Positions 1,609 to 37,491 of a DNA stretch of 38,160 bases are shown here, in pieces; within the stretch, counting starts at the first letter, position 1, and each line of letters begins with the position of its first letter. This DNA comes from Eubacterium sp. Its GTDB lineage: Bacteria; Bacillota; Clostridia; Oscillospirales; Acutalibacteraceae. The notes beneath the pieces were generated by a model that saw only the letters and a program-made list of their open reading frames with translations, made no database searches and had not been told where the DNA came from. The translations under genes were made by a program, and so were the position numbers. The DNA is taken from assembly GCA_017446095.1 (NCBI GenBank), contig JAFSRN010000014.1:1-38160 (forward strand), written 5' to 3'.

Positions 1609-1731
1609 ATTGAGAATTGAGAGTTGAGAATTGAGAATTGATGGCGGGACACCCGCACCCGATTATATAATAGGTGTGGACGAAGTCCACCCGAAATTCT
1701 CCATTCTCCATTCTACATTATCAATTCTACT
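1609..1731. repeat. heptamer-armed palindromic element, copy B
   Basis: Left arm of TTGAGAA units, right arm of TTCTCCA units, which are complementary. The core carries ATTATATAAT followed by the hairpin GTGGAC-GAA-GTCCAC. The outer edge of the right arm supplies the TAG stop codon of spoVAE (1727-1729). Confidence 0.8.
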
Positions 1732-2086
1732 TGTCCTTTGGTTTTGTGACGAGTGCTGTGATTAGCCCGCAGAGCACGGCGACTGTTACACCGCCTGCCA
1801 TCGCGGTTAGCGCACCTGTCAGCACGCCCATAAAGCCCTGCTCGCGCACGGCTTCTTTTACACCTTTTGCAAGCGCGTTGCCGAAGCCCGTCAGCGGAAT
1901 CGTTGCGCCTGCGCCTGCAAAATCGACCAGCTCGTCGTATACGCCGAGTCCGCCGAGCACCACGCCTGCACATACAAATGTAACAAGTATCCGCGCCGGC
2001 GTCATTTTTGTTATGTCAATAAGCAGTTGCCCGATTACGCAGATTGCACCGCCCACCAAGAATGCCTTTAGGCACATTAAAAACAT
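1727..2086 (-). CDS. spoVAE: Stage V sporulation protein AE
   Basis: Small membrane protein of the SpoVA dipicolinate channel, about 119 residues with three to four hydrophobic segments. Family features are KAFLVGGAICVIGQLLID at the N-terminus, the LTGFGNALAKG stretch after AGAGATIP, and a C-terminal ALVTKPKDK. The start is uncertain. An ATG at 2098 has no ribosome site; the ATG at 2086 is preceded by GGGTGATTTT, whose GGTGAT can pair with the AUCACC part of the anti-Shine-Dalgarno region, and gpr in this window uses the same arrangement. I prefer 2086. The ribosome site lies in one arm of a long hairpin (2088-2126). The stop is TAG, contributed by repeat copy B. spoVAD is absent from the window. 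Confidence 0.88.
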   Translation of the reverse strand: MFLMCLKAFLVGGAICVIGQLLIDITKMTPARILVTFVCAGVVLGGLGVYDELVDFAGAGATIPLTGFGNALAKGVKEAVREQGFMGVLTGALTAMAGGVTVAVLCGLITALVTKPKDK

Positions 2087-2087
2087 A

Positions 2088-2126
2088 AAATCACCCATTG
2101 GTATTGTTTGTACCAGTGGGTGATTT
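2088..2126 (-). promoter_or_regulatory. hairpin covering the spoVAE ribosome site
   Basis: A 16-bp stem with a single G-T pair and a 7-base loop. On the minus strand its second arm contains GGGTGATTT, the presumed spoVAE ribosome site, and T-rich sequence follows, so it could also act as a terminator for transcription arriving from gpmI. Confidence 0.55.
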
Positions 2127-2139
2127 ATTCATTGTCAGG

Positions 2140-2258
2140 TATTAAGTTTTAAGTGTTAAGTGTTAAGCTTTTGGTTACTCACTTCGTTCAAACAAATAAA
2201 CGGGTGTGGGCAGAGCCCGCCATAAAGCTTAAAACTTAAAGCATAACACTTAAAACTA
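2140..2258. repeat. heptamer-armed palindromic element, copy C
   Basis: Left arm of TTAAGTG units, right arm of AAAACTT/ACACTTA units, core with GGTGTGGGCAGAGCCCGCC. It lies directly behind gpmI, and its edge supplies the gpmI stop codon TAG (2256-2258). Confidence 0.8.
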
Positions 2259-3788
2259 CTTTATAATTGATTCTCCTGTCATTTCTTCCGGCTGCGGAAG
2301 GTTCATAACTTTGAGCATTGTCGGTACGATGTCGCAGAGTTTTCCGCCCTCGCGCAGCTCAACATCGCCGCAGTTGCATACGATAAACGGAACTTCGTTT
2401 GTTGTGTGCGCGGTGAACGGCGAGCCGTCGGGCTCTTTCATCTGGTCTGCGTTGCCGTGGTCGGCGGTTACAAACAGCGTGCCGCCGTTTTCCATAACCG
2501 CGTTGTACAGCGAGCCAACGCAGGTGTCAACCGCCTCAACAGCGGCTACAGCAGCGTCAAACACGCCAGTGTGGCCAACCATATCGCAGTTTGCAAAGTT
2601 AACAATAACCACGTCGTACTTGCCCGACTTAACGGCTTCATCAAGCTTTTCGCTTACAAGATAAGCGCTCATTTCGGGCTGCAGGTCGTATGTAGCAACC
2701 TTGGGTGAGGGGATAAGTATTCTGTCCTCGCCCTCGTTAACAGCTTCAACGCCGCCGTTAAAGAAGAAGGTTACGTGCGCGTATTTTTCCGTTTCGGCAA
2801 TGCGCAGCTGAGTCATATTGTTCTTTGCAAGGTATTCGCCAAAAGTGTTTGTAAGCACCTGCGGCTTAAACGCGATGTCAACGTTCGGCATAGTCGCGTC
2901 GTACTGCGTCATGCAAACATAGTTAACCTTAAAGTACTTTCTGTCAAAGCCTGTGAACTCGGTGTCAACAAAGGTCCTTGTAATCTCCCTTGCGCGGTCG
3001 GGGCGGAAGTTGAAGAATACAACGCTGTCGCCTTCGCCGACTCTGCCTTCGTTTTTGAGTGTAACAGTCGGCATAATGAACTCGTCGGTGAGGTTCTTGC
3101 CGTCGCCGTCAATCGTTTCGTACGAAGCCTTGATAGCCTCAACCGGGTCGTCTGCCTGAATGCCTTCACCGAATACAAAAGCGTTGTACGCCTTCTGCAC
3201 TCTGTCCCAGTTACTGTCACGGTCCATAGCGTAGTATCTGCCGGTTACGGTTGCAACCTTGCCCACGCCGATTTCGTTCATTTTGTCAATCGCCTCGGCA
3301 ACGAAATCCTTGCCAGATGTAGGTGGAACGTCACGTCCGTCCATAATGCAGTGCAGGTAAACCTTGTCCTGACCGAGCCTTTTTGCAAGCTCAAGCAGCC
3401 CCCAGATGTGGGTGTTGTGCGAGTGTACGCCGCCGTCGCTCATAAGCCCCATAAGGTGCAGGGAAGTGCCGTCCTCAACGGATTTGCTGATAGCCTTAAC
3501 CAGCGCCTCGTTTTCAAAAAAGTCACCGTCTTCAATGGACTTTGTAATTCTTGTAAGCTCCTGATACACAACTCTGCCGGCGCCCATATTGGTGTGGCCG
3601 ACCTCGGAGTTACCCATCTGACCGTCCGGCAGACCTACATTGAGCCCCGACGCGCCGATGTATGTGTAAGGATATTTTTCCATAAGCATATCAAGGTTCG
3701 GCTTTTTAGCGGCAGCAATAGCGTTGCCGTATTCGCTCGGGTTGTGGCCGAAACCGTCCATAATGCAAAGTACGTTAGTCTTTTTCAT
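2256..3788 (-). CDS. gpmI: 2,3-bisphosphoglycerate-independent phosphoglycerate mutase
   Basis: Converts 3-phosphoglycerate to 2-phosphoglycerate in glycolysis, cytoplasmic and dependent on two Mn2+ ions. The 510-residue length is normal for the family. The first metal aspartate is D11 in MDGFG, the phosphorylated serine is S61 in QMGNSEVGHTNMGAGR, the HSHNTH region follows near residue 120, and the C-terminal metal site reads TADHGNADQM. The start ATG has a strong GGAGG 7 bases upstream. The gene is the third of the pgk-tpiA-gpmI run, but palindromic elements separate each pair, and a terminator stands between tpiA and gpmI, so it may be partly independent. The stop is TAG at the edge of repeat copy C. 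Confidence 0.97.
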   Translation of the reverse strand: MKKTNVLCIMDGFGHNPSEYGNAIAAAKKPNLDMLMEKYPYTYIGASGLNVGLPDGQMGNSEVGHTNMGAGRVVYQELTRITKSIEDGDFFENEALVKAISKSVEDGTSLHLMGLMSDGGVHSHNTHIWGLLELAKRLGQDKVYLHCIMDGRDVPPTSGKDFVAEAIDKMNEIGVGKVATVTGRYYAMDRDSNWDRVQKAYNAFVFGEGIQADDPVEAIKASYETIDGDGKNLTDEFIMPTVTLKNEGRVGEGDSVVFFNFRPDRAREITRTFVDTEFTGFDRKYFKVNYVCMTQYDATMPNVDIAFKPQVLTNTFGEYLAKNNMTQLRIAETEKYAHVTFFFNGGVEAVNEGEDRILIPSPKVATYDLQPEMSAYLVSEKLDEAVKSGKYDVVIVNFANCDMVGHTGVFDAAVAAVEAVDTCVGSLYNAVMENGGTLFVTADHGNADQMKEPDGSPFTAHTTNEVPFIVCNCGDVELREGGKLCDIVPTMLKVMNLPQPEEMTGESIIK

Positions 3789-3804
3789 ATATAATCCTCC
3801 GGAT

Positions 3805-3921
3805 TAGTATTCAGTATTCTGTGTTCGGTGTTCAGTTTGCCGGTCACTTCGTTCCGATTATAATCGGGTATGGGCGGAGCCCATCTCCGGCTGAAAACTG
3901 AGAACTGAATACTGTAAACTA
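3805..3921. repeat. heptamer-armed palindromic element, copy D
   Basis: Left arm with TTCAGTA, TTCTGTG and TTCGGTG units, right arm with complementary CTGAAAA/CTGAGAA units. The core has CCGATTATAATCGG followed by TGGGCGGAGCCCA. It begins only about 5 bases upstream of the gpmI ribosome site. Confidence 0.82.
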
Positions 3922-3952
3922 AATAAGGCGACGCTCGGTCGCCTTATTTTTA
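3922..3952 (-). terminator. terminator downstream of tpiA
   Basis: Perfect 11-bp stem AATAAGGCGAC / GTCGCCTTATT with loop GCTCG, next to the tpiA stop codon. The T-run is better on the plus strand than on the minus strand, so its strength for tpiA is uncertain. Confidence 0.7.
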
Positions 3953-4720
3953 TTATCTGCTTGCAGCCTTTACAATAATTGAAAAGTCCTCTGCCTTAAG
4001 TGAAGCGCCGCCGATAAGACCGCCGTCAACGTTCTCTTTATCGGTAAGTTCTTCAGCATTTTTAGCGTTCATAGAGCCGCCGTACTGTACAACAAAAGCG
4101 TCTGCAGCTTCCTTGCTGTAAAGGTCAGCGATTACGCCGCGGATGTAGCCGTTAACTTCGTCAGCCTGGTCAGCAGTAGCGGTTTTGCCTGTGCCGATAG
4201 CCCATACCGGCTCGTAAGCGATGATAACGTTTTTGAGCTCGTCCTCCGTAACGCCCTGAAGCGCAACCTTTGTCTGCTTGCCAACGATTTCAAAAGTAAC
4301 GCCCTGTTCTCTCTCTTCAAGAACCTCGCCAACGCAAAGGATAACGGTAAGACCGTTGTCAAGCGCAGCGCGAACTCTCTTGTTAACAGTTTCGTCAGTT
4401 TCGCCGAAATACTGGCGTCTTTCGCTGTGACCGATGATTACATACGGTACACCCATAGCTTTAAGCATAGGTGCGGAAACCTCGCCTGTGAAAGCGCCTT
4501 TTTCTGCCCAGTGGCAGTTTTCAGCACCGATTTTGATGTTAGAGCCTGCTGCTGCGTCAAGCGCTGCCTGAAGGTCAACAAACGGTGCGCAGATAACTAC
4601 GTCGCAGTCTGCGTCAGCAACAAGGGGTTTCATTTCGTTGATAAGTGCAGTAGTTTCAGCAGGGGTGTTGTTCATCTTCCAGTTACCTGCGATAACTGCT
4701 TTTCTGAGTGATTTGTTCAT
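3953..4720 (-). CDS. tpiA: Triosephosphate isomerase
   Basis: Interconverts dihydroxyacetone phosphate and glyceraldehyde 3-phosphate; a soluble TIM barrel acting as a dimer. The 255-residue protein has all active-site residues: N13 and K15 in GNWKMN, H98 in IIGHSERR, E170 in AYEPVWAIGTG, then the phosphate-binding YGGSMN and GGLIGGASL loops. The start ATG has AGAGGT 7 bases upstream. It lies between pgk and gpmI on the same strand, the usual clostridial order, with palindromic elements D and E in both gaps. Confidence 0.98.
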   Translation of the reverse strand: MNKSLRKAVIAGNWKMNNTPAETTALINEMKPLVADADCDVVICAPFVDLQAALDAAAGSNIKIGAENCHWAEKGAFTGEVSAPMLKAMGVPYVIIGHSERRQYFGETDETVNKRVRAALDNGLTVILCVGEVLEEREQGVTFEIVGKQTKVALQGVTEDELKNVIIAYEPVWAIGTGKTATADQADEVNGYIRGVIADLYSKEAADAFVVQYGGSMNAKNAEELTDKENVDGGLIGGASLKAEDFSIIVKAASR

Positions 4721-4744
4721 AATATTTACCTCTTTATTTGGTTT

Positions 4745-4861
4745 TATGTTTTAAGATTTAAGGTTTAAGCTTTCGGGCGGACTTTGTCCGCACCTATTAT
4801 ATTAGGTATGGGCAACGCCCATCATTTGACTTAACACTTAACACTCAAAACTTAACACTAA
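4745..4861. repeat. heptamer-armed palindromic element, copy E
   Basis: Left arm TTTAAGA/TTTAAGG units, right arm ACTTAAC units. The core has GGGCGGACTTTGTCCGC, ACCTATTATATTAGGT and ATGGGCAACGCCCAT. It occupies the whole gap between pgk and tpiA. Confidence 0.82.
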
Positions 4862-6058
4862 TTATTTGTCGTTAAGCGCTACGATGCCCGGCAGTTCCTT
4901 ACCCTCAAGGAATTCAAGCGACGCGCCGCCGCCTGTTGAAATATGGCTCATCTTGTCTGCAAAGCCGAGCTTTGTAACTGCAGCAACGCTGTCGCCGCCG
5001 CCGATGATTGAGATTGCGCCGCTGTCTGCAACTGCTTTAGCAACTGCAACTGTGCCGGCTTCAAACTCTTTCCATTCGGAAACGCCCATAGGACCGTTCC
5101 AGATTACAGTGCCTGCGCCCTTGATAGCGTCAACAAAGAGCTTCTGCGTAGCAGGACCGATGTCAAGACCCATCCAGCCGTCCGGAATCTCGTCAGAGTT
5201 AACAATCATAGCCTCTGTGTCCTCGCTGTATTCCTTGCCAACCTTGTTGTCGATAGGAATAAGGAACTTAACGCCCTTCTTGTCAGCCTCTTTCATCATT
5301 TCGCCGGCTTTGTCAATCCAGTCAGACTCGAGCAGGGAAGTACCGATTGAGTGACCGAGGTACTTCATAAATGTGTAAGCCATGCCGCCGCCGATGATGA
5401 TAGTGTCGCACTTCTCAAGCAGGTTTGTGATAACGCCGATTTTGTCGGAAACCTTTGCGCCGCCGAGGATTGCAACAAGCGGTCTTTCAGGGTTAGCAAG
5501 CGCGCCGCCCATAAACTCGATTTCCTTCTGAATCAGGAAGCCGCAAACTGCAGGCAGGTATGCTGCAACGCCTGTTGTTGAGCAGTGAGCACGGTGAGCA
5601 GTACCGAATGCGTCGTTAACAAAGATGTCTGCAAGCGAAGCAAGCTCTCTTGAGAAGTTTTCCGCATTGCTTGTTTCTTCCTGGCGGAAGCGTACGTTTT
5701 CAAGCAGCATAACTTCGCCGTCCTCAAGGTGCTTTGCCATAGTCCTTGCGTTGTGACCAACAACTTCCTTGTCCTCTGCAAGCTTAACTTCCTTGTCAAG
5801 GTACTCAGAAAGTCTTTCTGCAACAGGTGCAAGGCTGAATTCGGGCTTATACTGACCCTTCGGTCTGCCAAGGTGGGAACAAAGGATAACCTTTGCGCCG
5901 TTTTCGATTAAATACTTGATAGTCGGCAGAGCAGCAACGATTCTTTTATCGTTTGTAATGCTTGTGCCGTTAAGCGGTACATTGAAGTCGCAACGAACCA
6001 AACATTTTTTGCCGCGAACATCAATATCTTCAATTGATTTTTTGTTTAATGCATCCAT
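4862..6058 (-). CDS. pgk: Phosphoglycerate kinase
   Basis: Transfers phosphate from 1,3-bisphosphoglycerate to ADP, the first ATP-yielding step of glycolysis. The 398-residue protein shows the hallmarks in order: [18 protein letters not shown] (residues 14-31), the [10 protein letters not shown] motif, [18 protein letters not shown], the hinge around [13 protein letters not shown], and the nucleotide site [11 protein letters not shown] with the GGGASLE end. The start ATG has AGGAGAG about 9 bases upstream. It is the first gene of the pgk-tpiA-gpmI run and has its own promoter at 6101-6129. The glyceraldehyde-3-phosphate dehydrogenase gene that often precedes pgk is not here. Confidence 0.98.
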
Positions 6059-9400: not shown

Positions 9401-9552
9401 TTATTGTGTTAAAGTGCGCAAACTGTAATGAGTATTATCGCGTTAGCTTTGCCGCATATATTAATGATAATTACGCGCCGGTCGATCTCAACGGCGACGG
9501 CATAGTCAACGGCAGGGATTATGCAATACTCAAATCATACAATGCATCGTAG
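6418..9552 (+). CDS. Secreted subtilisin-like serine protease with BspA-type leucine-rich repeats and a half dockerin
   Basis: Extracellular protease of 1044 residues. I start at ATG 6418 because the signal peptide (MKKKILALLLCVTLLIGFIPLAIGA) begins there after GGGGCGAG; the frame is open further upstream but without a start signal. Order: signal peptide, I9-like propeptide to about 115, subtilase domain with D170 (VGIVDSGID), H206 (NGHGTHVAGI) and S354 (GTSMAAP), a beta-rich stretch about 430-500, then LRR_5/BspA-type repeats (IGENAFLYNSNLQKV, SLGEYAFAKV) to about 830, a CxxC module (HDW...CANC), and a final DLNGDGIVNGRDYAILKSY, which is the first calcium loop of a type I dockerin. A full dockerin needs two such loops; the second is missing, and the TAG stop is the first bases of a GTAGGG repeat. 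Adhesion plus proteolysis is a reasonable inference. Confidence 0.9.
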   Translation: MKKKILALLLCVTLLIGFIPLAIGALHRAKEISAKEFISEYETLHSEYKDSPVSELIMVKSAYEVPKLDSVASAEGYADLHFMQFDNTSSAEKALTYYQQLPTVEYAEADSRVYTAESNNYSSYSSVSSTASSSTSHLSWGGEVIGVDEFVEKLGDTADSLPTVTVGIVDSGIDTGHSFLKRRIISTGVNYSSSGEKNSEYDDNGHGTHVAGIVVDNTTDNVKIRGYKCLNKNGYGDESAVCAALIKAVDDGVNVINLSLGRKDEQEDETLRYLIEDAIDQGVTVCIAAGNDAMDAAGYYPANVEAAITVGAVNMTEELCKFSNYGNSVDLLAPGSLIESCWPNNQYLFLQGTSMAAPFASAASAMVLGVHPDYTCDDICRLLMRCGRDIGNSKIPRGRLINISATDSESAEPPIISTHSGSYVDEVRLTMTCPTENADIYYTIYGYKHTEYGDNRYRIVSDVKYDGGEVVINQTAFVKAYSKSANGAKGGIATAYYYVTHTDNEQFEIDENGIITAYHGNQPYLAVPDELDGVAVRGIGNDVFAQTFATHGGDDDFLIYISLPDTCTYIGENAFLYNSNLQKVIADNLQIVDKNAFAYANNLAEIDMTSLTSLGEYAFAKVPVGSIYNKHLTELPRNVFDTASIFEVYLPNVTQLGDYAFYHAVGLKAADFPKVTYIGRGAFREVNSLSYVNMPQLQEFAPGGYQFKDCPITTDSLNIGDFSGTLPQNVFYGTQLQCFDNENVTQIDQYAFGETPLEYVKLKAAQQVNYSAFYNCSQLKTAYLPSVEILQANVFNKTDLQTLFAPQLQELDVTSLHTDAHNAATSAGNPVNIYCMGGLSTVNNISRFKDDVVATFAYTFITPSGSSTEQICSEKGWSKIDSDTMADTVGTHNNNSGETVFEFGWKSIEEIEQYADSLMFGFGDVYDSDIFVAKNGNTYFGVASNEDTARCCVNVDGMIFRSASLTIGENETEPENGCTHDWQPVYSVPIQNDSIIVLKCANCNEYYRVSFAAYINDNYAPVDLNGDGIVNGRDYAILKSYNAS

Positions 9553-9642
9553 GGGCGATTCACGAATCGCCCGCAGATACAACCGTAGGGGCTGGCGTCC
9601 TCGACAGCCCGCAAAACCGTAGGGGCGGATACCATCCGCCCG
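9549..9642. repeat. three tandem GTAGGG palindromic elements
   Basis: Three modules start at 9549, 9585 and 9619, each GTAGGG followed by a short palindrome: GGGCGATTCACGAATCGCCC, GGGCTGGCG...CGACAGCCC and GGGCGGATACCATCCGCCC. The first supplies the TAG stop of the subtilase gene. Confidence 0.85.
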
Positions 9643-14625: not shown

Positions 14626-14831
14626 GTAGGGGTCGGCGTCCCCGACGACCCGTTAAAATTGTAGGGGCGATTCACGAATCGCCCGCGGACCGATGTGCCC
14701 TTGGAGCGGGCGCCTCACCCTTTTGTCACCTGTGGTGACATTTTTGCTAGCGCAGACGCTCCCCTCTGTCACTTTGTGACATCTCCCCGTTAATCGGGGA
14801 GTACCTCACAGGGGAATCTCATCGGTCCCTA
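14626..14831. repeat. nested GTAGGG palindromic elements
   Basis: Two GTAGGG modules (14626, 14661) are followed by a larger structure bounded by GGACCGATG (14687-14695) and its inverse CATCGGTCC (14820-14828). Inside are TGTCACC-TGT-GGTGACA, TGTCACTTTGTGACA and CTCCCCGTTAATCGGGGAG. The same inner modules recur at 36226-36337. The right edge supplies the TAG stop of the next gene. It fills the 322-base gap before 14829 except for the rpsF promoter and leader. Confidence 0.85.
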
Positions 14832-15734
14832 CTTCAATTCGTATGCTTCAAAGTTCTTTGCGCACAGGTACAGGCAAAGTACAAGTGCCAGCACTGAGAA
14901 AGCAGCATTGAAAATAAGCGACGGAGCAAGCGCTGTTAACGCTTTTAATAACACTGCTGTGTCAGTCGGATTTTGAAGAATACTCGAAGCTGCTTCCTGC
15001 GATGTCTTAAGCGGGGTCAACGCCGTAATAAAAACGATGACGTAATTAAACAGTGTGGGAATGATTATCAGAAAAATGTTTGGTACAAACAGCATACGCG
15101 TATTTTTGTCAATACTTTTAAGCGCAACGTTAAAGAAGGCGTAGATGATTAACAGGTGCAACACAATTCCTATTGCGTTTGTAATCGGTGTGAGAAATGC
15201 ACCCGCAAAATTGCTTACCGTATTTATTATTGATATTACAAAGCCGCCGACTAAATCACCAACGAGCAAAAACCACCACTTGCTTTTTAAACGAAACTCG
15301 CGAGGAAAAACCAATGACGATTTTTCCTCATAAAGCGCAGCGTAGCGGTTGACAAGCTTTGTATAACCGAGCAGGCATATTATCAGAGTAATAACCGAGG
15401 TTATTGCATATTGCACCGATGCGTTAACAAGGTGATCGCCGAAGCCGGAAAACAAATCAGCAAGGCTGTACAGAGCACTGTTTGTGAAAGAAAACAGCCC
15501 GACGGGCAGCAACAGCAGCGGAATTGATTTGTATTTGTTTTGCTCAAAGCCAACTGTCTTTCTGAACATAACCGTGATTATCACGAGAAGCAGTACTACC
15601 CTCGCAAACGCCGTTATATCATCAATACTCGGCACGAAATGCAGCAGTGCCGTAACGCCCGCGATTATAATCGCCAGCGCGGCGTAAACGATTACCGCCT
15701 GCTTGTAGTATTTAGTCAGTTTGTAGGTTTCCAT
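14829..15734 (-). CDS. Polytopic membrane protein of unknown function
   Basis: A 301-residue protein with about seven to eight hydrophobic segments and a short cytoplasmic N-terminus (METYKLTKYYKQ). Notable stretches are VVLLLVIITVMFRKTVGFEQNKYKSIPLLLLPVGLFSF and KSKWWFLLVGDLVGGFVISIINTVSNF. I do not recognise a family, and no transport or catalytic motif stands out. The ATG has GGAGA 7 bases upstream. It lies downstream of the ClC gene on the same strand, but a terminator and several palindromes lie between, so co-transcription is doubtful. The final codons are AAG TAG, the TAG being the first bases of a GTAGGG-type element. Confidence 0.75.
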   Translation of the reverse strand: METYKLTKYYKQAVIVYAALAIIIAGVTALLHFVPSIDDITAFARVVLLLVIITVMFRKTVGFEQNKYKSIPLLLLPVGLFSFTNSALYSLADLFSGFGDHLVNASVQYAITSVITLIICLLGYTKLVNRYAALYEEKSSLVFPREFRLKSKWWFLLVGDLVGGFVISIINTVSNFAGAFLTPITNAIGIVLHLLIIYAFFNVALKSIDKNTRMLFVPNIFLIIIPTLFNYVIVFITALTPLKTSQEAASSILQNPTDTAVLLKALTALAPSLIFNAAFSVLALVLCLYLCAKNFEAYELK

Positions 15735-15751: not shown

Positions 15752-15914
15752 TAGGGGTCGGCGTCGCGACGACCCGTTATAATGGGTGAGGGCAAAGCCC
15801 TCCCTAAATTCATAAAAAAGCCAATGCGGTGAGCAAAAAACCTCAGTGCAACCTCAGGTTGCACATTGCAAAACCGTTTGTTTTGCAATGGGCTGTCGGG
15901 GACGCCAGCCCCTA
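15752..15914. repeat. cluster of palindromic elements behind the ClC gene
   Basis: On the minus strand the series starts with GTAGGGGCTGGCGTCCCC, which contains the ClC stop codon, then CATTGCAAAAC / GTTTTGCAATG, then GTGCAACC-TGA-GGTTGCAC, and ends near 15752 with a GGGTCGTCGCGACGCCGACC palindrome. Confidence 0.8.
15835..15864 (-). terminator. terminator of the ClC gene
   Basis: 8-bp perfect stem GTGCAACC / GGTTGCAC with a TGA loop, followed on the minus strand by TGAGGTTTTTTG. It lies within the repeat cluster. Confidence 0.7.
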
Positions 15915-17477
15915 CTTTTTAATTAGTTCACATATGCGCTTGACGTCCTGGGAGAAGCGGCGCTGGGATATCAGCATCACAAGCGTGTCGCCCTCTTTTA
16001 GCAGGGTGTCGCCCTTGGGCGTAATCGGTGTTTCGCCGCGCTCAACGCTTACAATCAGGCAGTGCTTGCCCCAGTCGATGTCGGCAATCTTTTTGCCTGC
16101 AACGCTGCTGCCGACGGGTATTGTAAACGTCTGAATAACCTTTTCCACATCCTTGGTGTTGAGGGTGGGGGAGTCGGTGTTTTCAACCGCCTTTTCAAAC
16201 AGAATTGAGTAAAATGGCGCGGTGCCGATAGTGTTCGCTACGGCGTAGGAAATAAGGCTTACCGTCGCTATCGGAAGCAGCGAATGCATATCGCCCGTCA
16301 GTTCAAACACAAGTATAATGCCTGTAAGCGGCGCACGCACGATTGACGAAAACAGCCCTGCCATACCGATTACAACAAACTCCTCATACAGCCCTTCGCG
16401 TATGCCGATCTGGTTGATTGCAATGTTGCCGAAGATTGCGCCAATATACGCGCCGAGCACGCAAAGGGGATACAGCGTGCCGCCCGGTGCGCCCGACGCG
16501 AATGAGAACGCGCCGAACAGGAACTTCGCCGCAAGCAGCACAAACAGCGCGGTGAGTTCGGGGCGGTCTGTCATAAGCGTTGCCGCCATGCTGTGTCCGC
16601 CGCAGAGGATTTTAGGGAACGTCAAGCCCACAATTCCGCTTACGAGGAATACAAACGCGAACTTAATCGGTGTCGGGATTTTTGTGATTTTTTTAAACAT
16701 CTTCTGCGCCCAGACCATCGCAACGTTGTAGCCTGCGCCTGCAAAGCCAAGCACAATGCCCATAAGCACAAGTATCCAGTAGTGGTGCAGGGCAAGGGTA
16801 ACCGTGTCGTAGTTAAACGTGGTTTCGTGCCCGAAGAATGCAATGGAAATAAAGTCGGCGGTGATGCTTGCAACAATGCTCATACAGAGAATTGATTTGT
16901 CAAGCGAGTGGTGAATTTCCTCAAGCACAAACATTGTGCCTGCAATCGGCGCGTTGAACGCGGCTGCCATACCTGCGCCTGCGCCGCAGGAAATCATACG
17001 CAGTTCCGTGGTTTTATCGGACTTCGTAATGCGCGCAACGCCCTTTGCCGCCATACCGCCGAGCTGTACGGACGGACCCTCTCTGCCAAGCGACAGACCG
17101 CTGAAAACAGAAGTTGTGCCGCCGATGAACTTTGCAATAATTACACGCCACCAGTTGAGCGAAAAGTGTCCGCGGATTTCGCCCGAAGTCTGCGGAATAC
17201 CCGAGCCTGCTGCGTCGGGTTCCCACTTGTTTATATAACTTACCATAACGCCGAGCGCGCACAAAAGCAGCAGCCAAAGCGCAATTCGCGCAGGGTTGCC
17301 CTTAACAAAATCGAGCGCCTGCATCAAGCCTTTTTCGGCGTATTCAAGGGCAAAACGGTACAAAACGCAAACAAGACCTGAAGCGATTCCGACTTCAAGT
17401 CCTCTGATGATAAGATATATGCTCTCACTTTTATGAAAGCCGACTTTGCGTATGGTGGTCTTTTCCTGATTTCGCAT
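15912..17477 (-). CDS. ClC-family chloride/proton exchanger with TrkA-C domain
   Basis: Membrane protein of 521 residues. The ClC fold covers about residues 20-430, with GSGIPQTSG (anion site) and GREGPSVQLGG, which carries the gating glutamate, and AFNAPIAGTMFVLEEIHHS, whose glutamate pair matches the internal proton glutamate of the E. coli exchanger. GLFSSIVRAPLTGIILVFELTGD is the third signature. With both glutamates present a Cl-/H+ antiporter is more likely than a channel. The C-terminal 80 residues are a TrkA-C/RCK-C ligand domain (SVAGKKIADIDWGKHCLIVSVERGETPITPKGDTLLKEGDTLVML). The ATG at 17477 has no ribosome site; see the possible leaderless promoter. The last codons are AAG TAG at a repeat edge. 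Confidence 0.93.
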   Translation of the reverse strand: MRNQEKTTIRKVGFHKSESIYLIIRGLEVGIASGLVCVLYRFALEYAEKGLMQALDFVKGNPARIALWLLLLCALGVMVSYINKWEPDAAGSGIPQTSGEIRGHFSLNWWRVIIAKFIGGTTSVFSGLSLGREGPSVQLGGMAAKGVARITKSDKTTELRMISCGAGAGMAAAFNAPIAGTMFVLEEIHHSLDKSILCMSIVASITADFISIAFFGHETTFNYDTVTLALHHYWILVLMGIVLGFAGAGYNVAMVWAQKMFKKITKIPTPIKFAFVFLVSGIVGLTFPKILCGGHSMAATLMTDRPELTALFVLLAAKFLFGAFSFASGAPGGTLYPLCVLGAYIGAIFGNIAINQIGIREGLYEEFVVIGMAGLFSSIVRAPLTGIILVFELTGDMHSLLPIATVSLISYAVANTIGTAPFYSILFEKAVENTDSPTLNTKDVEKVIQTFTIPVGSSVAGKKIADIDWGKHCLIVSVERGETPITPKGDTLLKEGDTLVMLISQRRFSQDVKRICELIKK

Positions 17478-23568: not shown

Positions 23569-24957
23569 ATGACTATGGAATTTGAATTTGAAGAACTGAT
23601 TGAGCAAATCCAGAACCATTACGAAAACAGGGAACTTTCAAAAATCAAAGAAATACTCAGCGAAATCAACCCTGCCGATATCGCGGCAATACTTGAAGAA
23701 CTGCCCGAAAATCAGCGCCTGCTGTTCTTCCGCCTGCTGTCAAAAGAGGACGCGGCGGACACCTTTGTAGAACTCGACGGCGACACGCAGGAAGCCCTGA
23801 TTCACGGCATTTCGGACACCGAGCTGCGTGAAGTGCTTGACGAGCTCTACCTCGACGACGCCGTTGATATCATTGAGGAAATGCCTGCAACCCTTGTAAA
23901 GCGTATTCTTAAGAACACGGACAGGGAAACACGCAAGGCGATTAACATTTTGCTTAAGTATCCCGACGATTCCGCAGGCTCGATTATGACGCCTGAGTTC
24001 GTCGACCTTAAAAAGGATATGACCGTTGAGGACGCGTTCAAGCGCATCCGCCGCACCGGTGTGGATAAGGAAACGGTTTATACCTGCTACGTAACCGACG
24101 CGTCGCGCCATCTGCTTGGCGTTACCACGGTTAAGGATTTGCTGCTGCACGATTACGACGACAGCATTGAGGATTTTATGGAAACCAACGTAATCTACCT
24201 CAACACGCTTGACGACCAGGAGCTTGCAGCGCAGTACTTTGATAAGTATAACTTCCTCGCGCTTCCCGTTGTTGATATGGAAGAACGTCTTGTCGGTATC
24301 ATCACCATCGACGATGCTCTTGATGTCATCCAGGAAGAGAATACCGAGGATATCCAGAAGATGAACGCTATGCTTCCTACGGAAAAAACGTACCTCAAAA
24401 CCACTGTGTTTGAAACGTGGAAGAGCCGTTTTCCGTGGTTGCTGCTGCTCATGGTTTCCGCAACGTTCACAGGCTCGATTATCACGGGCTTTGAGGACAA
24501 GCTCGCAACGCTTACAATCCTCACCGCGTTTATCCCGATGCTTATGGACACGGGTGGTAACTCCGGCGGTCAGGCAAGCGTTACGGTTATCCGTGCAATG
24601 AGTCTTGGCGAGGTAAATTTCCGCGATTACTTCAGGGTAATCTGGAAGGAAATCAGGGTTGGTCTGTACTGCGGACTTACGCTTGCAGCGGTAAACTTCC
24701 TCAAAATCTGGCTTATTGATAAGCTCGCTTTCCAAAACGACGAAATCACGCTTTTGATTGACGTGGCAATCTGCCTCACGCTCGTAGTGGAAATAGTGTT
24801 CGCAAAGTTCATCGGCGCGTCGCTGCCAATGCTCGCAAAGCGCATAGGTTTTGACCCTGCGGTAATGTCGTCACCGTTCATAACAACAATAGTAGACGCG
24901 GTTTCGCTACTCGTATTCTTCGGTATTTCAAGCGCGGTAATCCCGCAATTGCATTAG
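23569..24957 (+). CDS. mgtE: Magnesium transporter MgtE
   Basis: Mg2+-gated magnesium channel of the inner membrane. The 462-residue length is normal. Order: cytoplasmic N domain about 1-135 with superhelical repeats (LPENQRLLFFRLLSKEDAADTFVELDGDTQEALI), two CBS domains about 136-260 (SAGSIMTPEFVDL, LVGIITIDDALDVI), the plug helix, then five membrane segments about 285-460 with SATFTGSIITGFE and PMLMDTGGNSGGQASVTVIRAMSLGEV, the conserved pore stretch. ATGs at 23569 and 23575 both follow AAAGGGG; I use the first. It is last in the plus-strand run from rpe, and the stop TAG lies at the edge of an inverted repeat. Confidence 0.96.
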   Translation: MTMEFEFEELIEQIQNHYENRELSKIKEILSEINPADIAAILEELPENQRLLFFRLLSKEDAADTFVELDGDTQEALIHGISDTELREVLDELYLDDAVDIIEEMPATLVKRILKNTDRETRKAINILLKYPDDSAGSIMTPEFVDLKKDMTVEDAFKRIRRTGVDKETVYTCYVTDASRHLLGVTTVKDLLLHDYDDSIEDFMETNVIYLNTLDDQELAAQYFDKYNFLALPVVDMEERLVGIITIDDALDVIQEENTEDIQKMNAMLPTEKTYLKTTVFETWKSRFPWLLLLMVSATFTGSIITGFEDKLATLTILTAFIPMLMDTGGNSGGQASVTVIRAMSLGEVNFRDYFRVIWKEIRVGLYCGLTLAAVNFLKIWLIDKLAFQNDEITLLIDVAICLTLVVEIVFAKFIGASLPMLAKRIGFDPAVMSSPFITTIVDAVSLLVFFGISSAVIPQLH

Positions 24958-24960
24958 AAA

Positions 24961-24982
24961 AAGGCTTCCTTTTGGAAGCCTT
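24961..24982 (+). terminator. terminator-like hairpin behind mgtE
   Basis: Stem AAGGCTTCC / GGAAGCCTT with a TTTT loop, 4 bases after the mgtE stop. There is no T-run behind it, so termination may be weak here and completed by the copy at 25258-25282, which has five T. Confidence 0.5.
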
Positions 24983-25131
24983 GAGGCTGTCGAAAAAGTA
25001 CATAACCACGCCGAAATACTATTTAGGAGAAATAGTAGGGAGCGGCGACCCCGACGCTCCGCGTGCGAAGCACCTGATAAAAAATATCTATGAAAACCCG
25101 CAGAAACATTGAGTTACTGCGGGTTTTGGCG

Positions 25132-25193: not shown

Positions 25194-25283
25194 CTGCATC
25201 TTTTTCGTTCATCCTCACAGCGTGCCGAATTTGTTTCTTAGGTTTTTCGACACGCTGAAGGCTTCCTTTCGGAAGCCTTTTTA

Positions 25284-26771
25284 TTATTGCTTACGCTCGA
25301 TAAGCTTGCACTTAACTTCAAACGTTTTGATTGAATTGTTTTCCACTCTTGCGATTGTCAGGGTTACTGTGTCGCCCGGCTTTGAATCCGCGAGCTTGGA
25401 GGTCATAACGTCAGTTGACGTCAGCGTTTCGCCGTCAACTGCAACAATCATATCATACTGCTTAACGTCCTTGCTCTTAAGGTCGCTGTCATCGCTGATT
25501 GTCTGAATAACCATTGTGCCCTGTGCGTCCTTAAAGCCTTTTTTAGCAAGTGCTTCAAGTATGCTGTCGGCGCTGTTGTAAGCCGCAAGCGAGTTGTACT
25601 CAATGCCGATTTGCGCTCTGCCTGCAACGTAGCCGTTTTTAATCAGCGCGTTTGCTGTTTTAACCGCTGTGCTGCTCGGTACTGCAAAGCCCATACCTTC
25701 ATATTCTGTGGAAGCAATCTTTGACGAGTTAATGCCGATTACCTGACCCTGCATATTGAACAGTGCGCCGCCCGAGTTACCCGGGTTAATCGGTGCGTCA
25801 ACCTGAATACACTCGTTTTTGTAGCCGATTGACGACTGCACAGGTGCTGCGAGCGCGGATACAATACCCTGCGTTACGCTGTTTTTGAACTCAAGACCGC
25901 CGGGGCAACCGATTGCCACGCAAGCCTGACCGAGTTCAACATCGTCGCTGTTGCCGAAGGTTGCAACCTTAAGTCCCGTTGCCTTTATTGCAAGCACGCC
26001 GATATCGGTCTGGCTGTCGTAGCCAACCATTGTAGCGTCGTACTCCTTGTCATTTTCAAGCGTTACTTTGAAGGAACTGCCGTCCTCAATAACGTGAGCG
26101 CAGGTCATAATGTAAGTTGTGCCGTTTTCCTCAGCCATAATTACGCCCGAGCCCTCGCCGGAAGCCTGCTCTTTGCCGTTGCTGCTCTGATTGCCGTAGT
26201 TGTAGAAGTTGTAGTAATCGGTCTGGTTTGTGTAAACCGTAATACCCACGCACGAATCAATCGTCTTTTTAACTACGCCGACTGCGGTGAGGTTGCCGTC
26301 CTCGTCCTTTTCGGGATTAGCTTCGCTGTCCTCAACCTTTGCTTCGGCATTGCCGTTAACAGAGCCACCGTTATCGTCGTCTTTTTCCTCGTCCTTATCG
26401 TTACTGTCGGACTGTGAGGTTGAGTCGCTTACATTCTCGTAAACCACGCCTGCAACTATGCCGAAAGCCGCAATAGCAAAGCACAGAATACCTACAACAA
26501 TTATAACGATAAGCGCGGTATTCTTTTTCTTTTTAGGGGTGTAAGGCTGCATACCGGGCATCATCGGCTGGAAGTTGTTCTGCGCAACAGGTGCCGCAGG
26601 GCGCTGCGCGTTAAAGTAGTCCATTTTCGGTGACGGCGGTTCAGGCTTCTGATCTGCCGGTGCGTAGCCGCTGCTTACAGGCGGTACGGGTTTATACTCG
26701 TTTTCTGCGTTTGTGTTTTGTTCCTTTTCAGGTTCTTCAGAGTTGTTGAATTCTTTGAAAAAATCATCCAT
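25284..26771 (-). CDS. htrA: Membrane-anchored HtrA/DegP-like serine protease
   Basis: Envelope quality-control protease of 495 residues. A disordered, Pro- and Gln-rich cytoplasmic N-terminus (1-82) precedes one membrane segment about 84-110. An acidic linker (DSNDKDEEKDDDNGG) leads to a trypsin-like domain with H226 (TCAHVI), D256 (TDIGVLAI) and S333 (GNSGGAL), and a single PDZ domain closes the protein about 390-490. The domain order is that of B. subtilis HtrA. The ATG has GGAGA 8 bases upstream. It lies 70 bases behind the sensor kinase gene on the same strand, which links it to that two-component system as in CssRS-HtrA or WalRK-HtrA loci. Confidence 0.95.
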   Translation of the reverse strand: MDDFFKEFNNSEEPEKEQNTNAENEYKPVPPVSSGYAPADQKPEPPSPKMDYFNAQRPAAPVAQNNFQPMMPGMQPYTPKKKKNTALIVIIVVGILCFAIAAFGIVAGVVYENVSDSTSQSDSNDKDEEKDDDNGGSVNGNAEAKVEDSEANPEKDEDGNLTAVGVVKKTIDSCVGITVYTNQTDYYNFYNYGNQSSNGKEQASGEGSGVIMAEENGTTYIMTCAHVIEDGSSFKVTLENDKEYDATMVGYDSQTDIGVLAIKATGLKVATFGNSDDVELGQACVAIGCPGGLEFKNSVTQGIVSALAAPVQSSIGYKNECIQVDAPINPGNSGGALFNMQGQVIGINSSKIASTEYEGMGFAVPSSTAVKTANALIKNGYVAGRAQIGIEYNSLAAYNSADSILEALAKKGFKDAQGTMVIQTISDDSDLKSKDVKQYDMIVAVDGETLTSTDVMTSKLADSKPGDTVTLTIARVENNSIKTFEVKCKLIERKQ

Positions 26772-33531: not shown

Positions 33532-33553
33532 AAGACTCCGCAGGAGTCTTTTT
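33530..33553 (+). terminator. terminator of the ABC-F gene
   Basis: Stem AAAGACTCC / GGAGTCTTT with a GCA loop and T-run, starting at the stop codon. Confidence 0.88.
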
Positions 33554-33706: not shown

Positions 33707-34525
33707 TTCAATATTCTTCAAGCCCTGCGTATATCCGAGCTGGTAGATTGCCTCGAGCTTTTCAGGGCTTTTTTCAAGCGCGTTGCAGTTCAGCGGAGTC
33801 AGCGGCTGAATCACAAGCAGTTTGCCCTCTGCTTCAAGCTTGTGTATTTCCTCAATCTGGTTGTTGTAAATGATGCTGCGGTTGATAATCGCGTCGCCAA
33901 TCAGCGGATAGGTGTTGGCAAACGGTTTTTTGAAGTTCCTGTTTGTCACGCGCTTAACGTAGCCCTTGTGCTGGGTGAGGATTGTAACCGCCTTTTCGCA
34001 GCCGTCCTCAAGCGCGCGCTTTGCCGGGATAGAATCCGCAAGTCCGCCGTCAAAATACAGTTCGCCGCCGATTTCCGTCCCCTTTGTTACGCCGGGCATA
34101 CTGCACGACGCGCGTATTTCAGGGCATTCGTTGCGCAGCGATTTCGGGTAAAAGTACTCCGCCTTGCCCGTTTTTGCGTTTGTTGCAACCACGCAGTAAA
34201 CCGCGTTCGATTTTTCAAATTCATCCTGGTCAAGCGGGAACAAGTCGTAGCTAAGTTCGCCGAACGTCCAGTCAAAATTGCAGTATTCGCCGCGTTCGCG
34301 CAGGTTGGTAAAGCTCATATACCTTTTGTCTTTTGCGGAAAACAGAATTACATCGTGCTGGCGCTTAATCGCTTTGCCGAGGTACGACGCACCGCAGCAG
34401 CTGCCCATGGACACGCCGATAACATAGGGGAATTCTATATCGTTTTCCATAAAAGCGTCAAGCACGCCTGCGGTGTAAATTCCGCGCGAGCCGCCGCCCT
34501 CAAGCACAAGTCCGCATTTGTACAT
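33683..34525 (-). CDS. Patatin-like phospholipase, YjjU type
   Basis: Predicted cytoplasmic acyl hydrolase of 280 residues acting on lipids; the substrate is not known. The Ser-Asp dyad is intact: oxyanion loop GGGSRG at 10-15, nucleophile S39 in GVSMGS, and D159 in YFDGGLADSIP. The C-terminal part (ILTQHKGYVKR, then NCNALEKSPEKLEAIYQLGYTQG) is typical of the bacterial YjjU branch rather than of plant patatins or ExoU. The ATG follows AGAAGAG at 9-10 bases. No signal peptide. It is followed by its own terminator. Confidence 0.92.
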   Translation of the reverse strand: MYKCGLVLEGGGSRGIYTAGVLDAFMENDIEFPYVIGVSMGSCCGASYLGKAIKRQHDVILFSAKDKRYMSFTNLRERGEYCNFDWTFGELSYDLFPLDQDEFEKSNAVYCVVATNAKTGKAEYFYPKSLRNECPEIRASCSMPGVTKGTEIGGELYFDGGLADSIPAKRALEDGCEKAVTILTQHKGYVKRVTNRNFKKPFANTYPLIGDAIINRSIIYNNQIEEIHKLEAEGKLLVIQPLTPLNCNALEKSPEKLEAIYQLGYTQGLKNIEKVRDFMK

Positions 34526-34553
34526 AAAACCATCTCTTCTCGTTTAAAAAATT

Positions 34554-34579
34554 GTAGGGAGGGCGTTTATTCCCTCCCG
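34554..34579. repeat. GTAGGG palindrome
   Basis: GTAGGGAGGGCG then GGGAGGG..CCCTCCC pairing, in the gap between the small membrane protein gene and the patatin gene. Confidence 0.7.
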
Positions 34580-34587
34580 ATAATTCA

Positions 34588-34824
34588 TTATTCAGCCTTT
34601 TTGTTTGCTTTTTTAGCCTTCTTTTCTTCTTTAGGTTCCTCTTCAGGTTCGTCCTTAACCTCTACAATTTCAAGGTCGTTGTTGCACTCAAAGAAGTCAT
34701 TGTCGTCAAAGTATTCAGGCTCGTCTTTGTCGGTGAGTTTTTTAACTGCATAGTAAGCTGCAGCAGCAAGTGCGCAAATAGCTGCGATAATTGCAATAAT
34801 TTTGCATATTTTCTTAAAAGTCAT
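34588..34824 (-). CDS. Small single-pass membrane protein with acidic-basic tail
   Basis: A 78-residue protein with one membrane segment about 6-27 (ICKIIAIIAAICALAAAAYYAV), then a very acidic stretch (DKDEPEYFDDNDFFECNNDLEIVEVKDEPEEEPKEE) and a lysine-rich end (KKAKKANKKAE). The ATG has a strong GGAGG 7 bases upstream, which supports a real gene. No family recognised. Clostridia often carry such small YtxH-like or uncharacterised proteins; a role cannot be given. Confidence 0.75.
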   Translation of the reverse strand: MTFKKICKIIAIIAAICALAAAAYYAVKKLTDKDEPEYFDDNDFFECNNDLEIVEVKDEPEEEPKEEKKAKKANKKAE

Positions 34825-34903
34825 AATATTTCCTCCACATAAAAACTTATATCATCTATATTATATAACATTTTATCATAAAGTCAAGAAGTTTTATGTA
34901 ATT

Positions 34904-34928
34904 GTAGGGGCGATTCACGAATAGCCCG
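34904..34928. repeat. GTAGGG palindrome
   Basis: GTAGGGGCGATTCACGAATAGCCCG, with one mismatch to the copies at 9549 and 14661. A solo heptamer-type arm (CCGAGAACCGAACACGG) follows to about 34960. Confidence 0.75.
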
Positions 34929-34962
34929 ATAACCGAGAACCGAACACGGAAAACCGCAAACA

Positions 34963-34988
34963 AAAAAAGCGACCGTCAGGTCGCTTTT
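34963..34988 (-). terminator. terminator of rpsT
   Basis: Stem AAAAGCGACC / GGTCGCTTTT with a 4-base loop; seven T follow on the minus strand. Confidence 0.9.
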
Positions 34989-34990
34989 AG

Positions 34991-35248
34991 TTACGCCTTA
35001 TTTGCCTTGTTTGCAAGATTACTCTTCTTTCTTGCAGCGCAGTTCTTGTGGATAAGGTTCTTGCTTGCAGCCTGGTCAATCTTCTTGATTGCGTCCTTTA
35101 CAAGTACGTCCTTATCTTCTGCATCGTTTTCAATAGCAGCGTTTGCCTTTTTGATAGCGGTCCTAAGAGCAGAGTTACGTGCCTTATTATTAGCAGCCTT
35201 CTTGGCATTAACCTTTACTCTCTTTTTTGCTGATTTGATATTAGCCAT
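34991..35248 (-). CDS. rpsT: 30S ribosomal protein S20
   Basis: Helical protein that binds the 5' domain of 16S rRNA. The 85-residue protein begins MANIKSAKKRVKVNAKKAANNKARNSALRTAIKKA, the standard S20 start, and ends with LIHKNCAARKKSNLANKANKA. The frame opens with GTG nine bases earlier, but AAGGAG lies 7 bases before the ATG at 35248, so I choose that. Single gene with its own terminator, divergent from gpr, which is the common arrangement in Clostridia. Confidence 0.98.
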   Translation of the reverse strand: MANIKSAKKRVKVNAKKAANNKARNSALRTAIKKANAAIENDAEDKDVLVKDAIKKIDQAASKNLIHKNCAARKKSNLANKANKA

Positions 35249-35401
35249 TTCTTTCACTCCTTTGCGAGTTGATGTTTATATTTGAGGTTGAACATATAAA
35301 TTAATGCTTATGTATAGTATCACAACTCAAAACAAAATGCAAGCATTTTTTTATTTTTGGGCATACTTTTATTGAAAATAATTGTTTAAGCGGTGATTTT
35401 T

Positions 35402-36214
35402 ATGGCAAATCGCAGCGATTTGGCTGTTGAAAGTTATGAGGAAGGCGGCAAAACGCGGCTGCGCGGCGTTGTTGTTAAAGAGGATGACGGCGTAACCACG
35501 GTTGACGTAATCAGCAACGAAGGCGCGGCGGCAATCGGCAAGCCGGTCGGCAGGTACATCACGCTTGAGGTAAATTCTTTTGTGTACGATACCGATATCT
35601 TTGACGGCAGGCTTGACGACTTTGCCGATATTCTGCGTGCACTTTTGCCGGAAAATGTAAATTCCGTGCTTGTGGCAGGACTTGGCAACGTCAACATTAC
35701 TGCGGACGCGCTCGGCGTGCGCACAGGTGAATATATTTTGCCCACGCGGCATATAATTAATGATTTAAAAAAGGCGTTCGGCACGGATAACATTATGTCC
35801 GTGGCGTCAGTCGCAACGGGTGTGCTGGGCGATACGGGTATCGAAACTGCGGAAATTATCAAGGGCGTTGCCGCACAGATTCAGCCGTCGTGCGTTATTG
35901 CGGTGGACGCGCTTGCAGCCGGCTCTGCAGACAGGCTCGGCACTACCGTTCAGTTTGCAAACACGGGCATAACGCCGGGCTCGGGCGTGGGCAACCACCG
36001 CCACGAAATTTCGGGCAAAACGCTTGGCGTGCCTGTGATTTCCGTTGGTATTCCCACCGTCGTGCTTGACAGCCGCCGCGGCGAAAACGCCTACGTCACC
36101 CCGCGTGAGATTGACCGCATTATCCAGCAGGGCGCAAAGCTTATCGGTATGGGCATCAACGTCACCCTGCAGCAAAACCTCACCGCGCAGGATATATACG
36201 CACTGGTAGGATAA
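35402..36214 (+). CDS. gpr: Germination protease (GPR)
   Basis: Aspartic-type endoprotease that degrades small acid-soluble spore proteins when the spore germinates; made as an inactive zymogen in the forespore. 270 residues. The N-terminus ANRSDLAVESYE matches the RTDLAxE start of the family. Further marks are LVAGLGNVNITADALGVRT, the VASVATGVLGDTGIET stretch, SCVIAVDALAAGS and TGITPGSGVGNHRHEISGKTLGVPVISVGIPTVV. ATG 35402 follows GGTGA by 5 bases, similar to spoVAE; the in-frame GTG at 35393 lies inside that ribosome site. It pairs with spoIIP downstream as in other spore-formers. GCATA upstream could be a forespore sigma -35, but no matching -10 is clear. Confidence 0.97.
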   Translation: MANRSDLAVESYEEGGKTRLRGVVVKEDDGVTTVDVISNEGAAAIGKPVGRYITLEVNSFVYDTDIFDGRLDDFADILRALLPENVNSVLVAGLGNVNITADALGVRTGEYILPTRHIINDLKKAFGTDNIMSVASVATGVLGDTGIETAEIIKGVAAQIQPSCVIAVDALAAGSADRLGTTVQFANTGITPGSGVGNHRHEISGKTLGVPVISVGIPTVVLDSRRGENAYVTPREIDRIIQQGAKLIGMGINVTLQQNLTAQDIYALVG

Positions 36215-36225
36215 CTGCGCGAACC

Positions 36226-36337
36226 GTAGGGGCGATTCACGAGATTCCCCTATTAGGGGAAATGTCACCATAGGTGACAAAAGGGTCTGGCGACCGCCCC
36301 AAGGTTCGCCCGCGGGTCAGTCGTGATTGACCCCTAC
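36226..36337. repeat. nested GTAGGG elements between gpr and spoIIP
   Basis: It begins GTAGGGGCGATTCACGA and ends in the inverse CCCCTAC. Inside lie GATTCCCC-TATTA-GGGGAA and TGTCACCATAGGTGACA, the same modules as in 14687-14828, here in the opposite orientation. Confidence 0.85.
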
Positions 36338-36363
36338 AAAACTGTAACCATTGTGGAGAATAT

Positions 36364-37491
36364 ATGAAAAAGCAACTATTTATAATGTTATTAAATACTA
36401 TTATATTATTCGGCTGCGCAGGCATCTGCCTTAATTTCCTGCCGCTTATTGCACCGCAGGCAGCAGCAGCTTCGGTTTCGCTCGTCAGTATCGCTTCGCC
36501 CGAGCAGCGCGCAAAAAAGCCAGAAATTTCATCTGATAAAACCAAGCCTGCGGAACAAACTACTAACACCCGAACCGACTCTGCGGTGATGAATGTAATA
36601 GGTTCAAAGGATAGCGATGACGGTTACGATATCACCAAAACGCCTTCCGACGTGCAGAAACTGATGCAAAAGGCAAAGGGGAAGTACACCAAAAAGAACG
36701 CAAGCGGCAAAACGAGTGAGGAACCTTATCAGGGCGGCGGTACGCTGATTAAGCACGGCAACGTGCAGATTCAAAGCAAAATCCCCGCATCCTTTTACAA
36801 GCCGGATATCAAAAAGCTGCTTGCCGAGGGTACTGACCTCAGGATTAAGAACAGGGAAAAACCGACTATTTTGATTTACCACTCGCACACCTCGGAGGCG
36901 TATGCGCTTGCCGATTCGGGTTATTATATAGTTTCCGACTCGAGCACCTCGGACAAATCGAGGAACGTCGTTCGGGTCGGAAACGAGCTCGCTGCCACGC
37001 TCAAAAAGGCTGGCTACAACGTGATTCACGATACCGCTACGCACGACACAAAGTACAACGACAGCTACAATAACTCGCGCAAAACGGTGGAAAAGTATCT
37101 TGAAAAATACCCGTCAATCGAAATCACAATCGACCTTCACCGCGACGACATTACATATTCCGACAAAACCAAGGTCAAGCCCACCGCTGTTGTAAACGGC
37201 AAAAAGGCGGCGCGTATGATGATTATTTCGGGCTGCGAATACGGCAGCGTGGCGAATTTCCCCGACTGGGAATACAACCTGCGCTTTAACGCCGCCGTGA
37301 TGAATCAGGTGAACTCAATGTATCCCGACCTGATGCGCCCGATTCTGTTTGCTGAGCGCAAGTATAATATGTTTGAAACGCATACGTCATTTTTGCTCGA
37401 GGTCGGCACCGATGCAAACACGCTTGACGAAGCGTGCTATTCCGCGCGCCTGTTCGGCACCGCCTTCGCAAAATACCTCGACACACTGTAG
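36364..37491 (+). CDS. spoIIP: Stage II sporulation protein P, peptidoglycan hydrolase
   Basis: Amidase and endopeptidase that works with SpoIID and SpoIIM to thin septal wall and drive engulfment of the forespore. The 375-residue protein has an N-terminal membrane anchor (FIMLLNTIILFGCAGICLNFL), a low-complexity linker to about 150, and the amidase_3-like catalytic domain with H173/H175 in ILIYHSHTSEAY, the HRD in IDLHRDDI, and E346 in FLLEVGTDANT. All catalytic residues are present. GGAGA precedes the ATG. The usual gpr-spoIIP pair is kept although a 112-base repeat cluster separates them. The stop codon TAG is the first part of a GTAGGG element. Confidence 0.96.
   Translation: MKKQLFIMLLNTIILFGCAGICLNFLPLIAPQAAAASVSLVSIASPEQRAKKPEISSDKTKPAEQTTNTRTDSAVMNVIGSKDSDDGYDITKTPSDVQKLMQKAKGKYTKKNASGKTSEEPYQGGGTLIKHGNVQIQSKIPASFYKPDIKKLLAEGTDLRIKNREKPTILIYHSHTSEAYALADSGYYIVSDSSTSDKSRNVVRVGNELAATLKKAGYNVIHDTATHDTKYNDSYNNSRKTVEKYLEKYPSIEITIDLHRDDITYSDKTKVKPTAVVNGKKAARMMIISGCEYGSVANFPDWEYNLRFNAAVMNQVNSMYPDLMRPILFAERKYNMFETHTSFLLEVGTDANTLDEACYSARLFGTAFAKYLDTL

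Follow-up and report, generated by a model that had tools for sequence, protein, structure and literature searches.

Six genes in a stretch of 38,160 nt from the genome of Eubacterium sp., a gut bacterium (contig JAFSRN010000014.1, positions 1 to 38,160; hereafter the window, with G000 for the genome), end in TAG at the very edge of a repeat, which raises the question of whether the stop codon belongs to the repeat and how the repeat came to lie there. An earlier note had named the stops of spoVAE, gpmI, a subtilase, the membrane-protein gene at 14829, ClC and spoIIP, and our analysis confirmed that all six are TAG, that each coincides with a repeat edge, and that four (spoVAE, gpmI, 14829 and ClC) read AAG TAG. 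The accompanying remark that nearly all other genes end in TAA was too strong: the 34 genes found in the window with a home-made gene caller comprise 22 TAA, 10 TAG and 2 TGA, and TAA is the majority (22/28) among the remaining genes, alongside four TAG and two TGA. At four of the six edges (subtilase, 14829, ClC and spoIIP), the repeat is a GTAG-tagged repetitive extragenic palindrome (REP). We consider it very probable that the TAG stops at 9550, 14829, 15912 and 37489 are the GTAG feet of REPs that multiplied in this genome.

REP feet coincide with stop codons

Each REP begins with GTAG and continues into a palindrome, such as GGGCGATTC-AC-GAATCGCCC, and the elements occur both as single units and as head-head pairs. 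The four feet occupy 9549-9552 and 37488-37491 on the plus strand and 14829-14832 and 15912-15915 on the minus strand. At the subtilase gene with leucine-rich repeats (PF00082, PF13306; 6316-9552, plus strand), the REP spans 9549-9573 (plus) and its foot forms the TAG stop at 9550-9552. The REP at 37488-37513 (plus) provides the TAG of spoIIP, and that at 15890-15915 (minus) provides the TAG of the ClC gene (15912-17477). The REP of the membrane-protein gene (14829-15734) was read by eye at 14687-14832 (minus); its loop is split by a nested element (14696-14819), and its foot is the stop of the gene. An AAG TAG ending is simply AA joined to GTAG. The statement in the earlier note that the element carries the stop is supported, because GTAG is the defining foot of the REP; the effect has already been published (PMC3733652).

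REPs are present in high copy number in G000, where GTAGGGGCG occurs 112 times in the whole genome against 4 times for the reversed control. Their positions were analysed in 738,160 of 2,091,105 bases (~35% of the draft genome, window included), in which the home-made caller found 604 genes (422 TAA, 94 TAG and 88 TGA). The finder, which searched for TAGG with a G-rich hairpin and whose criteria were narrowed after the first result was known, returned 179 dispersed and mostly intergenic sites, with G preceding TAG in 162. Thirteen sites lay exactly on a stop, 94 followed the end of a gene on the same strand and 64 lay elsewhere in intergenic DNA, and the others fell in an opposite-strand gene (5), in a same-strand gene (2) or at a contig edge (1). 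The foot faced a same-strand gene end in 107 REPs, and 13 of these supply the stop; in a first, smaller sample, the stop was covered by 8 of 88. Thirteen is a low count because two REPs escaped the finder, the split one at 14829, owing to its long loop, and a degenerate one at C2:30997.

TAG stops end 16% of genes (94/604) and REPs are common, so some feet could meet a TAG by chance, but for REPs the counts make this explanation highly improbable. Offsets from the stop were 0 (13 times), 5 (once), 7 (3), 8 (5), 11, 12, 14 (3) and so on, and the 13 at offset 0 compare with 14 summed over offsets 3-14, or 1.17 per offset (Poisson, 4e-10). Of the 27 genes whose stop lies at most 14 nt from a REP foot, 14 ended in TAG, 11 in TAA and 2 in TGA, compared with 80 TAG, 411 TAA and 86 TGA among the other 577 called genes (one-sided Fisher, 7e-6, a value in which 13 of the 14 near-REP TAG stops are TAG because of how the overlap is defined). 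The base preceding TAG was G in 13/13 REP stops versus 20/81 other TAG stops.

Where a foot met a gene end, it lay in the stop frame in 13 genes and in another frame in one, a skew with a binomial probability of ~6e-6 under random frames (one third; hand calculation) that selection against read-through would equally produce. The single read-through gene, an ABC transporter on the minus strand of C6, crosses two REPs and ends in VGDGVLDVPKNTVGDGVLDVPNDKEGV. Translation of the two REPs, which lie in tandem, gives the protein a C-terminal tail with two copies of VGDGVLDVP, and the same peptide occurs within the transposase frame L082. A broader test, covering any hairpin directly after a stop, was discarded (TAG 7/58, TAA and TGA together 24/305, p 0.31); its signal was swamped by intrinsic terminators that follow TAA.

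Gene ends in relatives

Comparison of 82 gene ends in homologous stretches of three relatives (G034, G006 and G036, each of a different species and covered in part of the genome) showed what stands at these stops where the element is absent. Eight REP-ended genes lay in the compared regions, and orthologues were found there for six, the subtilase and C2:30997 having none. Three of these six end at the same codon in at least one relative that has no REP at the stop, with TAA twice and TAG once. The ClC orthologue in G034 ends in AAA TAA at the same codon and is element-free; the one in G036 extends 2 codons further, and the one in G006 6 codons further. C5:63787 ends in ATA TAA at the same codon in G006, is one codon longer in G034 and is cut by the contig end in G036. 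Both genes ended by the other repeat family, described below, also kept their terminal codon (2/2): spoVAE reads AAA TAA in all three relatives, and gpmI ends in TAA in G036 and G006 and in TAG in G034, which has its own repeat slightly downstream.

Five gene ends therefore have at least one element-free relative with the same terminal codon, which supports the view in the earlier note that the elements lie on stop codons and leave TAG. The comparison of orthologues that it called for gave TAA in an element-free relative at four of these five ends, and the fifth, C2:113335, was the one already ending in TAG, the outcome that the note had named as a refutation. Across the 82 genes, no TAG-ending relative carried a REP at the stop. 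In the intergenic DNA of the three relatives, an identity of about 75-88% left most empty sites unreadable. A genome from another family of the order, G041, has 190 GTAGGGGCG sites where the control gives 7 and is another REP-rich lineage; within its genus, no closer pair was found, with 66-82% identity among the matches listed.

A candidate transposase and the proposed explanation

The Y1-transposase family has a single match in the genome, at L081:1300-1806, which scored 23.2 and 25.8 bits against Pfam PF01797 (cut-off 23) and matched NCBIfam REP_Tyr_transpos with an E value of 9.8e-18. The protein carries the motifs MPNHVH, LWQRS and YIDENP. Its reading frame holds GTAGGGGAGGGTTTCCCAACCCTCCC and the reverse complement of that sequence (L081:1432-1457 and 1606-1631), forming inverted GTAG hairpins similar in kind to the REPs of the genome, on either side of the MPNHVH (HuH) motif, and these leave the frame intact. 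Among 81 homologous frames (L081 and 80 from a genome scan), a GTAG- or CTAG-tagged hairpin lay inside 40 and one hairpin per orientation inside 31, both counts being made without a shuffled control. At the 23 loci viewed closely (L081, L082-L100, L106, L108 and L118), 20 had an inverted REP pair inside the frame; the members of a pair were alike or nearly so in most loci and differed between genes. These features suggest that the L081 transposase probably moves the REPs of G000.

In the explanation that we propose, REPs would have spread to many copies in this clostridial genome, with its single TnpAREP/RAYT as their probable mover. When the foot of a new copy fell over a stop codon, NNA TAA would become NNG TAG, and the length of the protein would be kept, so that the insertion could be tolerated.

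Several observations weigh against this explanation. The mobility of the REPs is read from sequence comparison, transposition itself being unseen, and the transposase fell short of the NCBIfam cut-off (64.4 bits, cut-off 80) and barely exceeded that of Pfam. Four of the 13 REP-ended genes had coding scores below 50 from our home-made caller. In the relatives, C2:113335 already ends in AAA TAG at the same codon in both G036 and G006, the latter having its own REP a few bases downstream. The protein end differs in three of the six comparable REP-ended genes, by -1 to +5 codons: that of C2:182470 by -1 and +3 codons, that of spoIIP by +5 codons in G034 (the G006 stretch stops short of a stop codon), and that of 14829 by +3 codons, at only 50% identity. 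Copies of GTAGGGGCG are uneven among the relatives, with 16 in G034 (control 4), 29 in G006 (control 23) and 1 in G036 (control 5). Since the relatives are different species, a shared terminal codon could also reflect later change.

Tolerance and target choice

If REPs donate these stops, the excess at offset 0 would be caused by tolerance, by target choice or by both. Under tolerance alone, insertion is indiscriminate, and copies persist where no protein is damaged, either over the stop or downstream of it, an account that we hold to be plausible, falling just short of probable. It agrees with the 107 REPs facing a same-strand 3' end against 64 in other intergenic positions and with the presence of only 7 of 179 hairpins within called genes, and the tail of the C6 ABC transporter hints at some tolerance of such additions. 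It also predicts a smooth density past the stop, whereas 13 REPs were seen at offset 0 and 1 in total at offsets 1-6; this gap is partly forced by the sequence, offsets 1 and 2 being impossible and offset 3 requiring a TAG stop.

Target choice would explain the spike at offset 0 directly, although selection alone could yield it too. Here, REPs would insert at TA-centred tetranucleotides, preferring A-rich ones such as ATAA, which arises wherever TAA follows a last codon that ends in A; the TA would stay under the foot, and the outer bases would become G and, in paired REPs, C. We regard target choice as possible but unlikely. Its exact form, in which the target is typically ATAA, overlaid by GTAG (in pairs also by CTAC) with the TA retained, is more doubtful still. 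All five same-codon gene ends have ATAA or ATAG in a relative where G000 has GTAG. Against this, TAA and TAG contain TA anyway, and A precedes the stop in 230/503 other genes ending in TAA or TAG. The flank before the foot is A/T-rich, with, for example, A at position -4 in 96/156.

Places away from stop codons also bear on target choice. Comparison of flanks within the sampled sequence gave 2 of 112 clusters by one method and 3 of 108 by another, with two sites common to both. At three places in the cores of the heptad elements treated below, the GTAG...CTAC of the REP pair corresponds, in a well-matching other copy, to ATAA at the first and second and to ATAA or TTAT at the third; the matching copies read CCCATT ATAA TTATTG at the first and CAATAA ATAA AATCGGG at the second. 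These are selected copies of a variable repeat rather than true ancestors, further copies of the core lack TA in register, and ATAATTATTG occurs in only 2 of 14 REP-free core matches. One REP foot in G006 is GCAG, and at that place the element-free G036 also has GCAG, which argues that TA is not obligatory. If the ATAA target were true, it would give a testable rule for REP insertion, a point left open in the REP literature, as far as the accounts cited here go. NNA TAA stops would then be natural landing sites, and the spread of REPs would turn TAA into TAG with proteins unchanged, explaining part of the TAG usage in REP-rich genomes.

Relation to known REP systems

The GTAG-tagged REPs described by Di Nocera, De Gregorio and Rocco (2013; PMC3733652) have stems of 6-13 bp and mostly short loops, occur singly and head-head, lie mostly near gene 3' ends, and often provide with their feet the TAG stop of the flanking open reading frame, which the account terms 'opal' (TAG is amber). 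The elements in G000 share the GTAG foot, the stem with a short loop, the single and head-head units, the 3'-end bias and the donation of stops. They differ in that G000 is clostridial and has element-free relatives ending at the same codon; the published hosts are Proteobacteria, Cyanobacteria, Chloroflexi and the PVC group, and the word 'Firmicutes' occurs 0 times in the main text of that paper. A cognate RAYT/TnpAREP gene has been published as a frequent, not constant, companion of such REPs. The transposase resembles TnpAREP subclass 2.4 as characterized by Quentin et al. (2018; PMC6006769; HuH NH[IFV]H, WQ, YIxNNP) in its NHVH and WQ motifs, its double-foot REPs and their in-frame position within the transposase gene. 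It differs in that the hairpins of the L081 gene flank the HuH motif, one on each side. YIDENP is close to YIxNNP, with E for N at one position. REPs inside the transposase gene are not new, having been described for subclass 2.4. Because both the donation of stops and the in-gene REPs are already published, we regard the system as a clostridial instance of a known REP kind.

These results place a known but little-studied supply of stop codons by REPs in a clostridial lineage, in which relatives that lack the element at the corresponding gene ends make single insertions readable before and after. A hairpin beginning at the stop codon might affect termination too. REPs regulating translation are reportedly the subject of work by Liang, Rudd and Deutscher in 2015.

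The heptad-array elements

The repeat at the remaining two edges, those of spoVAE and gpmI, is of another kind, in which a hairpin core lies between inverted arms built of degenerate 7-nt units. One copy lies between the ABC-transporter gene and spoVAE (1608-1730, no strand assigned), its right edge giving the TAG of the spoVAE-like gene (PF03862; 1727-2098, minus). Another lies between spoVAE and gpmI (2138-2259, left limit approximate, no strand assigned), its right edge giving the TAG of gpmI. These elements fall outside the definition of a REP as a GTAG foot with one short palindrome: their edges are variable, their arms are 7-nt arrays, and TAG is not enriched at them.

In a first sample of 438 kb with 363 gene stops, we found 77 intergenic 7-nt arrays (80 in total), against 1 in letter-shuffled sequence. 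An array started within 10 nt of 28 stops, of which 17 were TAA, 6 TAG and 5 TGA; stops 11-60 nt from an array comprised 14 TAA and 1 TGA; and those with no array nearby, 224 TAA, 52 TAG and 44 TGA. No TAG excess was therefore present at heptad-abutted stops in this sample (6/28). The tabulation of stop type against element distance proposed in the earlier note thus gave an excess of TAG at REPs and none at heptad arrays, and the statement that two unrelated families behave alike did not hold, the link to TAG being confined to REPs. Chance stands as the explanation for the heptad family; as far as the sample tells, its elements also settle at gene ends, and their TAG is incidental.

In G036 and G006, the DNA that separates the ABC-transporter gene from spoVAE lacks the element found at 1608-1730 in G000, and the insertion is clean: both relatives read CTTTTTTATTTGTC, and G000 reads CTTTTTTA, the element and TACTTGTC, a pattern consistent with an insertion that has TA at both ends. 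Intergenic arrays of a 7-nt unit are known, as in the TAACTGA repeats of Beggiatoaceae (PMC4679880), which the heptad elements resemble in this respect; as far as those repeats are described there, the elements in G000 differ in having inverted degenerate arms around a hairpin core and in abutting stops. Several arrays stand directly after a terminator (by eye).

Other repeats in the window

The Rfam search gave zero matches in the window at gathering scores. Further GTAG REPs lie 3' of the subtilase (9585-9611 and 9619-9642, both plus), past the end of the 14829 gene (14626-14652 and 14661-14685, both plus), and away from any stop codon at 34904-34928 (plus). An inverted REP pair (GTAG ... 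CTAC; no strand assigned) occupies 36226-36337, with a nested element in the loop of its first hairpin. Copies of a further element inside GTAG REP loops were viewed by eye at 14696-14819, at 36242-36304 and near L002:13593-13685; on one strand, it reads AGATTCCCC ... CCAAGG, with inner hairpins around GTGACA, and it has several close matches in G006. A repeated block, GAGGCTGTCGAAAAAGT...CATAACCACGCCGAAATACTATTT, found at 24953-24997 and 25243-25287 and also 3' of C2:16703, adjoins terminator-like hairpins and is perhaps a mobile-element remnant.

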